NCBI GenBank assembly: GCA_002030045.1
Contig: LQBI01000001.1
Span: forward strand, 1 to 64,000
Direction of reading: 5' to 3'
Source of the DNA: Candidatus Aegiribacteria sp. MLS_C
GTDB taxonomy: Bacteria; Fermentibacterota; Fermentibacteria; Fermentibacterales; JCC-6
DNA: 64,000 nucleotides
In this document: positions 21,746 to 25,392 of the stretch, in pieces
Position numbering within the stretch: the first letter of the stretch is position 1
How the letters are laid out: every line of letters starts with the position of its first letter
The notes under the pieces: model-generated
What the model was told of the DNA's origin: nothing
Seen by the model: the letters and a program-made list of their open reading frames with translations, nothing else
Databases searched by the model: none
Position numbers and translations under genes: made by a program

Positions 21746-22672
21746 TCAGCGTATCTTGTTCTCCAGTTCCTGTATCTCGTACTTCGCGTTGGACCGTATC
21801 TCCTCCAGGGCCTCCAGCAGGTCGCGGTTGTAGTCCTCGCTGAGCTGCTCGTAGGGCTGTAGCGTCGTCCGGTTAAGGAAGGGTCCGAAGGCGAGTTCGA
21901 CCCCCAGGCTGAACTTGGGGTTATGCATCACGTCCGTGAGGTCCCTTTCGCTCGCGAACATCTGTTCGAATTCCGAGAGACCGCCCAGGAAACTGACGGT
22001 GCCGTTGAGCTGGTATTCGGCGCCGAAGTTTGCATCCCTCCCGTCCCATTCCAGGATAAGCGAAAGCTCCGGCACAGGGTGGTAGTCCATTCCCGCGAAG
22101 AGTCCCCTGAAGGGGTTGGACATCCTGCCGTCGGATATCTCGTCCTCGCCCTGACGGAACCTGCCCGTGCCGTATCCAAGGTGCAGACATACCGGTATTC
22201 CCGAGAAGTAGTCGAGGCTCTTGGTCATGACCAGGTATAGGGAGAAGTTCTGCGATTCCTGGTAGTCGTAGAGACTGTCCCTGTCGTCGCGGAAGAACTC
22301 GTAGTCCTCTTCGCCTGTGATGTTCTGACATCCCGCCGCCAGGCCCGGCGTGGTTATGCTCTCCCTGAGCACAAGGAACTTGACGTTGCCGGAAATGCCG
22401 GCCTCTCCCAGCCACGTAATGCCCAGCTGGCCCCTGTTGAAAAGTCCCACCTCCAGGTGGCCGGCCACTGCGAAGTCGCTTTCAGAGGAACTGTCGGCCC
22501 TCTCGTATCCGAAGGCCGTGAAGGAGCCGCCCAGAACTGCCTCGGTGTGGTGCAGGACCGATGCCGTGGGAATGTCCATGAGGCCTGGTCTCGAAAAGGG
22601 CAGGGAGCCTCCCTCGAGCAGCGACCCGCATGTCAGCGGAACAGAGATAAGTACGAAGAGGACATGTCTCAT
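21746..22672 (-). CDS. Secreted/outer-membrane protein of unknown function
   Basis: 308 residues from the ATG at 22672 preceded by GGAGGTG; a longer frame to 22723 adds an unlikely N-terminus. There is a signal peptide (MRHVLFVLISVPLTCGSL). The mature protein starts with FSRPGLMDIPTASVL, which recalls the N-terminus of YjbH-like and related outer-membrane proteins. It continues with alternating strands and glycines (LHLGYGTGRF, LFAGMDYHP) and ends in a ~50-residue charged helix (YEQLSEDYNRDLLEALEEIR). I recognise no specific family. It is the last of four minus-strand reading frames behind TetR. Confidence 0.55.
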   Translation of the reverse strand: MRHVLFVLISVPLTCGSLLEGGSLPFSRPGLMDIPTASVLHHTEAVLGGSFTAFGYERADSSSESDFAVAGHLEVGLFNRGQLGITWLGEAGISGNVKFLVLRESITTPGLAAGCQNITGEEDYEFFRDDRDSLYDYQESQNFSLYLVMTKSLDYFSGIPVCLHLGYGTGRFRQGEDEISDGRMSNPFRGLFAGMDYHPVPELSLILEWDGRDANFGAEYQLNGTVSFLGGLSEFEQMFASERDLTDVMHNPKFSLGVELAFGPFLNRTTLQPYEQLSEDYNRDLLEALEEIRSNAKYEIQELENKIR

Positions 22673-22742
22673 ATGGCACCTCCAGGCAAACAGGAAGATA
22701 AGGCTGCCAGAAACGCCGTGCAATACCCGGGGGAGGTCAGCC

Positions 22743-22916
22743 TCAGAAGTAGTAGGCGGCCCTGGCGTAGAAGAGGGAGGGCCAGCCGCCGAACTCGGAA
22801 ACGGTCACGCCTCCCGATCCCGGACCCTGGCCCTGACCCGGGTTTGAGCCGCACTGAAGGGCAGTGTTCTGTCCGGTGTCGTGCTCTTCAGAGAGCGAGA
22901 GGTATGACGAGGGACC
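22743..22916 (-). pseudogene. Tail of a lost beta-barrel gene, in frame behind the LolA-like stop
   Basis: Directly after the TAG (22917-22919) that ends the LolA-like gene, the same frame stays open for 57 codons to a TGA at 22743-22745. The translation contains LSLSEEHDTGQNTAL, then a Gly/Pro-rich stretch, and ends WPSLFYARAAYYF, with the aromatic final residue typical of outer-membrane barrels. No ATG, GTG or TTG with a ribosome-binding site starts it. It looks like the 3' end of a gene whose front was deleted. Readthrough of the TAG is possible but less likely. Confidence 0.5.
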
Positions 22917-23528
22917 CTAAAGGTTCACCATGGCGGATGAAGAGACGGTCCTTATGAGGTCGCCGCTGCCGTCGAAGTACTTCTCCCAGACTGGCAGGAG
23001 GCTTTCTTCCGATACGGCGACGACTATCGACGACCAGGTGACCGCTGTGGACTGCCTGGGCACCAGCTCCAGGTACAGGGCGTCCCCGTCAGCTCCCCCA
23101 GGAACGGCCGGATCCGGCAGGTAGCTCCATGTGTAATCCTCCGCATAGGTTATCTCCCGGACTATATCGTTATTGGTGATGTCAGAACCCATCCATGAAC
23201 CAGACATCATGGATGGAGGCACCCTTACGGTGCTGTTGGTGTTAGGAAGGTAGTTCCACATCTGGTCGCCTATCCTGAGAGTGGCCATTCCCGCCTCGCG
23301 GGCAGGCGGGACGATCACTATGAATGTCTTGTCCGTCCCCCGGGACCAGGCCTTCATCTCCATGGTCCTGGTCCAGTTCGGGGTTTCCACGGTCATTGTC
23401 ATCTCCGAGTAGCTGTCATTGCTCCTGTACAGCTGGTCCAGGCGGCTGACCAGATCTTCGATCTCCGGTCTTTCCCCTGAGACTGCCGGGCCCAGTAGCA
23501 GCAGGAGTGCCGGGCAGGCCCGACCCAA
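22917..23528 (-). CDS. LolA-like outer-membrane lipoprotein-sorting protein, C-terminally truncated
   Basis: 203 residues from a TTG at 23528, three bases after the TetR stop. A short signal peptide (RACPALLLLLGPAVSG) precedes the LolA-like fold: IEDLVSRLDQLYRSNDSYSEM, MEMKAWSRGTDKTFI, PPAREAGMATLRIGDQMWNYLP. These match the 'outer membrane lipoprotein-sorting protein' family that often accompanies TetR and MMPL/RND-type lipid exporters. Members usually have about 250 residues with a GGR.xP segment near the end; this protein stops at SSSAMVNL after the YFDGSGDLIRT strand, so about 45 residues are missing. The gene is probably damaged. Confidence 0.68.
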   Translation of the reverse strand: MGRACPALLLLLGPAVSGERPEIEDLVSRLDQLYRSNDSYSEMTMTVETPNWTRTMEMKAWSRGTDKTFIVIVPPAREAGMATLRIGDQMWNYLPNTNSTVRVPPSMMSGSWMGSDITNNDIVREITYAEDYTWSYLPDPAVPGGADGDALYLELVPRQSTAVTWSSIVVAVSEESLLPVWEKYFDGSGDLIRTVSSSAMVNL

Positions 23529-23531
23529 GTC

Positions 23532-24149
23532 CTATAAGCTGTCTCCCTTCGGTTCCAGTCCGGTGTAGAGAGTCCTCAGCATTCCACGTACGGATCCCGT
23601 CATATGATGAGCCGTGAAGCGTGGATCCGCCGCGTACCGGATCATCGATGTCGTGAGTATTCCGTAGATGACCAGCGCCGCCATGGCCGGGTCCAGGTCT
23701 CTCCTCAGCCTTCCGGTACCCGCGAGGTCCTCCAGAAGGCGGGTCAGCGCCCCCACCATTGTGGCGCCCTGCCCGAGTAATTCGCTTCCGGCTGCTTCGT
23801 GGCTTACGCCTGCGGTTTCCCTCAGCAGTTCGCGAAGCAGCTCATTCGAACAGCGCGAGATGATCCCGATGGAACTCTCCGCGAATCTGGTGATGGCTTC
23901 GAGCCCCGATTCCGAAGGCATTACGCTGAAGCCACCCTCCAGGGCTCCGGACATGTCCATTCCCGCGACGGCCAGCATGAGGGAGCTCTTCGATTCGAAG
24001 TAGTTGTAGATTGTCCCCACGGCCACTCCGGCCTTCTCAGCCACCGCCTGGACTTTGGTTCCGCCGTAGCCCAGCCGGAAGAACAGCTCCCCGGCCGCTT
24101 CGAGGATCGCACGTCCGGACCTTTCCTTCTTCGTGTCCCTGAGTCCCAT
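23532..24149 (-). CDS. TetR/AcrR-family transcriptional regulator
   Basis: 205 residues. The N-terminal helix-turn-helix is clear (AILEAAGELFFRLGYGGTKVQ, then AEKAGVAVGTIYNYFESK, about residues 14-60). The rest is a helical ligand domain with no diagnostic motif. It heads a minus-strand operon with the LolA-like gene. TTGGAGG precedes the ATG, and a promoter with an inverted repeat lies upstream. It probably represses its own operon, whose transporter part seems to be lost. Confidence 0.9.
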   Translation of the reverse strand: MGLRDTKKERSGRAILEAAGELFFRLGYGGTKVQAVAEKAGVAVGTIYNYFESKSSLMLAVAGMDMSGALEGGFSVMPSESGLEAITRFAESSIGIISRCSNELLRELLRETAGVSHEAAGSELLGQGATMVGALTRLLEDLAGTGRLRRDLDPAMAALVIYGILTTSMIRYAADPRFTAHHMTGSVRGMLRTLYTGLEPKGDSL

Positions 24150-24164
24150 GGATGGCCTCCAATT

Positions 24165-24195
24165 ATGAATCCGCTCAATTATATACTCAGTTCAT
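24165..24195 (-). promoter_or_regulatory. Promoter -10 and candidate operator of the second TetR gene
   Basis: On the minus strand TATAAT lies at 24183-24178. It is bracketed by the inverted arms ATGAA (24165-24169) and TTCAT (24191-24195). The stretch is markedly AT-rich against the GC-rich surroundings. A -35 element is not convincing. Confidence 0.45.
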
Positions 24196-24227
24196 ATTGT
24201 GACGGACACACTGCGCCTGCCGGGGCT

Positions 24228-24257
24228 GTGACGGGTCACCGGCCGCAAGAGTATACT
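24228..24257 (+). promoter_or_regulatory. Promoter of the GT4-aspartokinase-UppP-TPR operon
   Basis: GTGACG (24228-24233, four of six matches to TTGACA) and TATACT (24252-24257, five of six) are separated by 18 bases. The predicted start is about 40 bases before the ATG at 24304. Confidence 0.5.
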
Positions 24258-24303
24258 TGTAGGTCGAGCGGGGTAGTGTCCCGATCATTACGAAGGGCTG
24301 TGT

Positions 24304-25392
24304 ATGACCGGCAGGATACTCTTCATAATGCTTGGCAAGAGGGACTTCGTGTCAGGCGGCTACATCTTCAACTTCCGCATGGTCGAGATGCTGAGGGAGA
24401 CCGGCTTCGACGTCGAGGTGGTCCATTACAGGTCCGTCCCCAGGGGAATAACTGGCAGCTGGATCGATTCCTCGAGGTACGTGAGGAGCAGGGCGGCGGA
24501 ATACGGTCCCGACCTCATCATCATCGGCAAGAGCTACCAGTACGTCCCTCTCCTCCGACTGTCCCGGCTCTCGCGAAGGACGCCCGTCCTCTACCTCATG
24601 CACCACCTGGAGTGGACGGATTCCGGGAACAGGGTCCGGTCCCGGCTCTACAGGAAGTACGTTGGCTGGCTGCTGGGAATGGCGGACAGGGTCTGGTCCA
24701 ACAGCGGGAATACCGCCTCGGCCCTGAAGGGAATGGGAATACCGGAGGGGAGGATCAGGGTCATCAGCCCCGGTTTCGAGAAGACCGGGGAACCACCCCC
24801 CGACCGAGGCGGCAGGGAAGGACCGGTCAGGCTCCTCAGCGTGGGCAGCATCTCCAGGCGCAAGGACCAGGAAACCCTCCTTCGGGCCTGTCATCTCCTT
24901 GACGGCGAAGACTTCCTGCTGGAACTCGCTGGAAGCACCTCATCGGAACCATCATACGCCAGGTCGATAGAGAAGCTGGCTGAAGAACTCGGGCTGGGAT
25001 CCAGGACCGAGATATCCGGCAGTCTCGATCCGGAGAGGCTGCGGGAGGCCTACCGGCGGGCCGATATCCTGGTGCATACGGCCTCCTGGGAGGCCTTCGG
25101 CATGTCGATACTGGAGGGCATGTGGCAGGGACTGCCCGTGGTTGCCACGGACGTGGCTGGCATCCCGGAGCTTGTGGCGGACGGCGATAACGGTATACTC
25201 GTACCCCCGGGGGAACCCGGAATGCTGGCGGAAGCCCTGAGGAAGCTGATTTTCGATCCCGGCCTGAGGGCCTCCATGGGAACCCGAAGCAGGGAGATCG
25301 CCGGCGGCATGAACGACTGGGATGGTACCGATGCCGGTTTCCTGGAACTGGTGGAGGAATGCATCGCGCTTGGCGCTCAACGAGGGGGCTGA
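24304..25392 (+). CDS. GT4-family glycosyltransferase
   Basis: 362 residues with a GT-B fold. The N-terminal acceptor domain is about 1-165. The donor domain begins at RLLSVGSISRRKDQETLLRA and includes ADILVHTASWEAFGMSILEG, the E-x7-E-type motif of GT4 retaining enzymes, followed by GLPVVATDVAGIPELV. It would add a hexose from a nucleotide sugar, at the cytoplasmic membrane, to a lipid-linked or glycan acceptor. It is the first gene of a tight operon that also holds the undecaprenyl-pyrophosphate recycling enzyme, which suggests work on an undecaprenyl-linked glycan. The donor cannot be told. Confidence 0.88.
   Translation: MTGRILFIMLGKRDFVSGGYIFNFRMVEMLRETGFDVEVVHYRSVPRGITGSWIDSSRYVRSRAAEYGPDLIIIGKSYQYVPLLRLSRLSRRTPVLYLMHHLEWTDSGNRVRSRLYRKYVGWLLGMADRVWSNSGNTASALKGMGIPEGRIRVISPGFEKTGEPPPDRGGREGPVRLLSVGSISRRKDQETLLRACHLLDGEDFLLELAGSTSSEPSYARSIEKLAEELGLGSRTEISGSLDPERLREAYRRADILVHTASWEAFGMSILEGMWQGLPVVATDVAGIPELVADGDNGILVPPGEPGMLAEALRKLIFDPGLRASMGTRSREIAGGMNDWDGTDAGFLELVEECIALGAQRGG

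Follow-up and report, generated by a model that had tools for sequence, protein, structure and literature searches.

A short stretch on the minus strand of the window (the whole 64,000 nucleotides of DNA analysed here) is very probably the scar of a single internal deletion from a TetR-led envelope-transport operon, which joined a LolA-like gene to the end of a putative outer-membrane barrel gene. The locus is colinear with the intact operon of close relatives, the genes that should lie in the middle are absent from the genome, and the tail of the fusion is recognizably the end of the relatives' barrel gene; we infer that an ancestor carried the operon intact. The window opens contig C1 (271,537 bases) of a 2.98-Mb draft genome in 35 contigs, which is 97.65% complete with 0.07% contamination and is probably a MAG.

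All features of the locus lie on the minus strand. The first gene of the operon, an intact TetR-family regulator (23532..24149; PF00440, E 9.5e-15), has TAG as its own stop and is 47.5% identical to the TetR at the same position in a relative. It is followed by a LolA-like open reading frame (23528 to 22917) of 203 codons from a TTG, closed by an in-frame TAG (22917..22919). After this TAG the same frame stays open for 57 codons (22916-22746), with ARAAYYF as its last residues, up to a TGA (22743..22745), so that the combined frame of LolA and tail is 261 codons long and open save for one TAG. By descent, the frame divides into 194 LolA-derived codons (22947..23528), which hold the signal peptide and core and from which the C-terminal part has gone, and the last 67 codons of a barrel gene (22746..22946), in frame with LolA and containing the TAG. 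An intact YjbH-like gene (21746..22672, ATG at 22672) lies 70 bp past the scar; it narrowly exceeds the family cut-off (PF06082, E 1.5e-5, 24.5 bits versus 24) and is 75.9% identical to its counterpart at the same position in locus L089. A promoter and terminator scan of 22600-24350 gave nothing above chance.

The nearest relative is a Candidatus Fermentibacteraceae sequence (JAFGPK010000090.1, locus L031), the operon proteins of which are 100% identical to those of L089 in genome G006. L089/G006 is the sister of the window in both the LolA and the aspartokinase trees. In L031 and L089, UppP, aspartokinase and glycosyltransferase genes share one strand and are followed by the TetR-led operon, in the order TetR, LolA-like protein (255 aa), permease 1 (421 aa), permease 2 (407 aa), ATPase (237 aa), barrel (396 aa) and YjbH-like protein. 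The window shares with this arrangement the flanks on both sides, including two genes beyond the YjbH-like gene; TetR, the LolA start, the barrel end and the YjbH-like gene also follow one another in the same order and face the same way. Unlike L031 and L089, it has nothing between the LolA start and the barrel end: ~4.37 kb is missing after LolA codon 194, up to the point where the final 67 barrel codons begin. An earlier note, made from the window's letters, had proposed a deletion scar, and the comparison bears this out: the intact operon is colinear in close relatives and the window lacks exactly its middle. The YjbH-like gene directly follows the barrel in L089, L093 and L107 and is several kilobases away in L092 and L106, and because its placement varies in this way its tie to the operon is loose.

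The operon of TetR, transporter, LolA and barrel that the earlier note had envisaged does exist in the relatives, but its transporter is of the LolCDE/MacB ABC type, with two permeases and an ATPase, and not of the MMPL type. We therefore reject the MMPL version of the operon. Both permeases of the relative have FtsX and MacB_PCD domains and its ATPase is closest to LolD. The permeases are similar to LolC/E, the ATPase to LolD and the carrier to LolA of the LolA/LolCDE lipoprotein-trafficking system. Unlike LolCDE itself, however, the permeases (112.8 and 106.7 versus 362 bits, TIGR02212) and the ATPase (216.6 versus 308 bits, TIGR02211) fall below the curated cut-offs, and the cassette adds a putative barrel and TetR; judged by these scores the exporter is LolCDE-like rather than LolCDE. 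The 396-aa protein of the relative matched no Pfam or NCBIfam family, and its designation as a barrel is putative, derived from position, size and a C-terminal YF ending rather than from a structure.

The descent of the tail from this gene is clear. When a relative's 396-aa barrel was searched against the window's whole genome, the tail was recovered at E 4.8e-17 with one TAG and was the sole match at E up to 10. A profile built from the barrels of 16 relatives (L096, L103 and L104 were left out), compared with the six frames of the window, found the tail at E 4.2e-13, with the next match at 0.11. These two E values lead us to reject a chance resemblance. The tail is identical to the L089 barrel at 37 of 67 residues and to ten other barrels of the same genus at 24-28 of 67, whereas the L089 barrel's own tail is identical to those ten at 25-33 of 66-67 residues. 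Because the two ranges are close, the tail shows little or no divergence beyond what is expected.

The LolA-like open reading frame is a shortened member of its family. It matches PF17131 (LolA_like) at E 4.7e-29 and 101.8 bits, above the cut-off of 30, but falls short of whole-domain coverage, with a match to profile positions 1-135 of 184 where an intact relative's LolA matches positions 1-183. These profile limits, the coordinates of the open reading frame and the genome search with the barrel all agree with the earlier description of a shortened LolA-like frame followed in frame by a barrel tail. That LolA ends early also holds, but the deficit is ~60 residues rather than the ~45 first estimated, since LolA-derived sequence ends at codon 194 and the final 9 codons ahead of the TAG are barrel sequence. 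In the operon regions of relatives LolA is 250-256 codons long in 18 of 20; the remaining two read 268, from an extension that overran a stop, and 208, in a region with many frame breaks. In the relatives, LolA extends ~50 residues beyond the position at which the window has its stop, and the end of their barrel has its homologue in the tail. A relative that combines this 203-residue protein with the lack of any tail homologue, the case that had been named as refuting a deletion, was not seen. At the other end of the gene, the window has neither ATG nor GTG where the relatives' LolA begins and offers only TTG, 13 nt after GGGAGA; the ATG of L089 is 9 nt after AGGAGA and the GTG of L091 is 5 nt after GGGAGA. 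Annotators should treat the 203-aa LolA-like protein here as a remnant. Within it, at 23189-23216, two perfectly matching 10-nt arms flank an 8-nt loop, an inverted repeat that is probably due to chance.

DNA alignments with L089 place the junction within 22944..22951. LolA-like DNA ends at 22947 with GACCTCATAAGGACC, and barrel-like DNA begins with the next codon, GTC, at 22946. The stop had been thought to sit at the junction; instead, 9 codons separate the junction from the TAG downstream, which is in barrel-derived DNA. Counted from the same alignments, the missing segment corresponds to ~6267-10639 of L089, ~4.37 kb; it opens with LolA codon 195 and stops short of the final 67 barrel codons. 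The scar is most likely an ordinary dead-gene remnant of the deletion-fusion kind, and both sides of its join derive from the two genes that bordered the lost segment, LolA up to codon 194 and the barrel from the next codon.

At the two ends of the deletion L089 has GGACCATAACC on the LolA side and GGAACGTATCC on the side of the barrel gene, with 8 of 11 bases the same, and the sequence at the join is approximately GGA(C/A)C(A/G)TA in both parent genes. Since similar bases occur at the join in both genes of the sister, the deletion probably arose by illegitimate recombination at a short stretch of similarity. Such an origin is plausible on these grounds; the 8/11 match could be a chance one, and it is a match in the sister, which alone can represent the ends deleted from the window. 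A repeat-mediated deletion was considered and rejected: the only repeats found in 22600-23600, a 14-nt direct pair and a 10-nt inverted repeat, both lie away from the join.

We propose that one deletion of ~4.37 kb, in the sister's coordinates, would have taken out the end of LolA, both FtsX/MacB-type permeases, the LolD-like ATPase and the greater part of the barrel, and would have brought the final 67 barrel codons in frame behind LolA codon 194. The TAG, whether gained after the deletion or already there, would then close the fusion after 9 barrel codons. Because the LolA remnant has neither its C-terminal part nor a transporter or barrel partner, this genome has most likely lost the function of the pathway, with TetR and the YjbH-like gene remaining.

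The lost genes have not moved elsewhere in the assembly. Orthologues of permease 1 and permease 2 are absent from the 97.65% complete genome, the best paralogues being 26% and 21% identical, and so is an orthologue of the ATPase, with a best match of 38%; other operons of the genus that we examined show 77-81% identity for the ATPase and 68-78% for permease 1. The genome also has no barrel apart from the tail at the scar. This absence bears on the possibility that the assembler made the join in error, or that it represents a minority variant, and that the living population holds the whole operon. The draft is in 35 contigs and the join was seen in one assembly of the species, as misassembly or strain mixture would allow. 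Against this, the contig is 271,537 bases long, completeness and contamination are favourable, the missing genes do not turn up on other contigs, and the ~8/11 bases of similarity at the join in the sister fall far short of the overlap on which assemblers usually join sequences. The in-frame TAG of the tail and the missing ATG of LolA may, moreover, be marks of decay, which a join made in assembly would not create. We give an artefact of this kind only a small chance, and prefer a real deletion.

The TAG is the tenth barrel-derived codon of the tail. Among the 16 relatives with a usable alignment at this column, nine have T, three N, two A, one M and one E; L096 and L103, where the barrel end is missing, and L104 and L108, which have no barrel row, are outside this count. 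If the TAG were decoded, a LolA-barrel hybrid of ~261 residues would be made, and the 57 open codons and the recognizable tail beyond it fit such a product. The open tail, however, is explained by descent from the barrel gene, and TAG also ends the neighbouring TetR gene, as it does LolA in L089 (the stops of seven other genes read are all TGA). The pyrrolysyl-tRNA synthetase family has no match in the genome at its cut-off, the best reaching 25 bits versus 178, and a hybrid of C-terminally shortened LolA and a barrel end would have no obvious fold. Live read-through, which the earlier note had already put down as the exotic alternative, finds no support here and is extremely improbable; a stop within a deletion fusion is the reading we retain.

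To examine selection, six genes were subjected to branch tests with a codon model on the window branch, which is long and mixes the time before and after the deletion. Trimmed LolA gave an omega of 0.140 on this branch against 0.114 in the background (2dlnL 0.29, not significant), so that no relaxed constraint on the remnant is detectable over the long branch. TetR gave 0.345 against 0.150 (2dlnL 4.42), which is not significant after correction for six genes; TetR may be relaxing. The other four genes had window-branch values (background in parentheses) of 0.099 (0.179) for the YjbH-like gene, 0.106 (0.176) for glycosyltransferase, 0.109 (0.123) for aspartokinase and 0.119 (0.100) for UppP. 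The lack of detectable relaxation in LolA and the open frame point to a recent deletion, and they also fit a retained use of the fragment.

Such a use might take the form of a shortened LolA that is still made and useful alone, or of a scar kept so that TetR can control the YjbH-like gene. Consistent with this are the near-background constraint on LolA, a signal-peptide-like start that is still readable from the TTG, and the strong constraint (omega 0.099) on the YjbH-like gene 70 bp downstream. But the start is neither ATG nor GTG and stands 13 nt from the GGGAGA motif, the PF17131 match is cut at 135 of 184, and near-background constraint is what a recent deletion would give on a long and mixed branch. 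We therefore consider retention of either sort very highly unlikely. It is also highly unlikely that the shortened LolA, from TTG to TAG, serves another transporter while TetR now directly controls the YjbH-like gene.

The cassette lost here is widespread. The LolA protein was matched in 35 of the 60 genomes searched, the window's own included, and a permease lies within 3 kb downstream of LolA in 53 of 58 loci. Among these loci, 42 have at least 4.8 kb of downstream sequence, and 38 of the 42 hold LolA, permease, ATPase and barrel in that order. They define a conserved cassette, found in several phyla by record title, of a LolA-like carrier, two FtsX/MacB permeases, a LolD-like ATPase and a ~400-aa protein, for which the absence of a Pfam family was tested in L031 and L038. 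A literature search covering Fermentibacteria genomes, LolA-like/ABC operons and lipoprotein-sorting/FtsX clusters returned nothing on this locus and no description of the cassette's cargo, and it yielded one related system. In Borrelia, the available description of BBJ23-29 proposes a LolA-like carrier, a MacB/LolE-like ABC exporter and an outer-membrane barrel acting on a non-polar ligand (PMC13078400). Compared by that description, the proposed combination of carrier, ABC exporter and barrel is as in the relatives' cassette, but the Borrelia barrel is of the Omp85 family and there is one permease gene (PMC13078400).

Within the genus, 14 of 18 other genomes have a strong LolA match (in G011 as two pieces on two contigs), and permease 1 and the barrel are each found in 14. 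The LolA match of G007 is cut by a contig end, and none was found in G003, G004 or G008. In G003 and G007 the parts end at contig ends and hence give no evidence of loss, and G008 is 66% complete. G004, which is 98% complete, retains glycosyltransferase, aspartokinase and UppP in order, but has no TetR, LolA, permease or barrel match within 18 kb around that block (G004:C13:62000-80000, L136) and no LolA, permease 1 or barrel match genome-wide. It has probably undergone a second, complete loss of the operon. Together with the scar in the window, this suggests that the LolA-ABC-barrel cassette is dispensable in the genus. The scar itself offers a worked example of the one-step loss of an envelope-transport operon, readable nearly base by base because a sister species keeps the intact version. 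Elsewhere, in L103 (G035:C1:367000-383000), permeases 1 and 2 are matched in several pieces in different frames and LolA is without its start, which suggests either frame errors in the assembly or a decaying operon.
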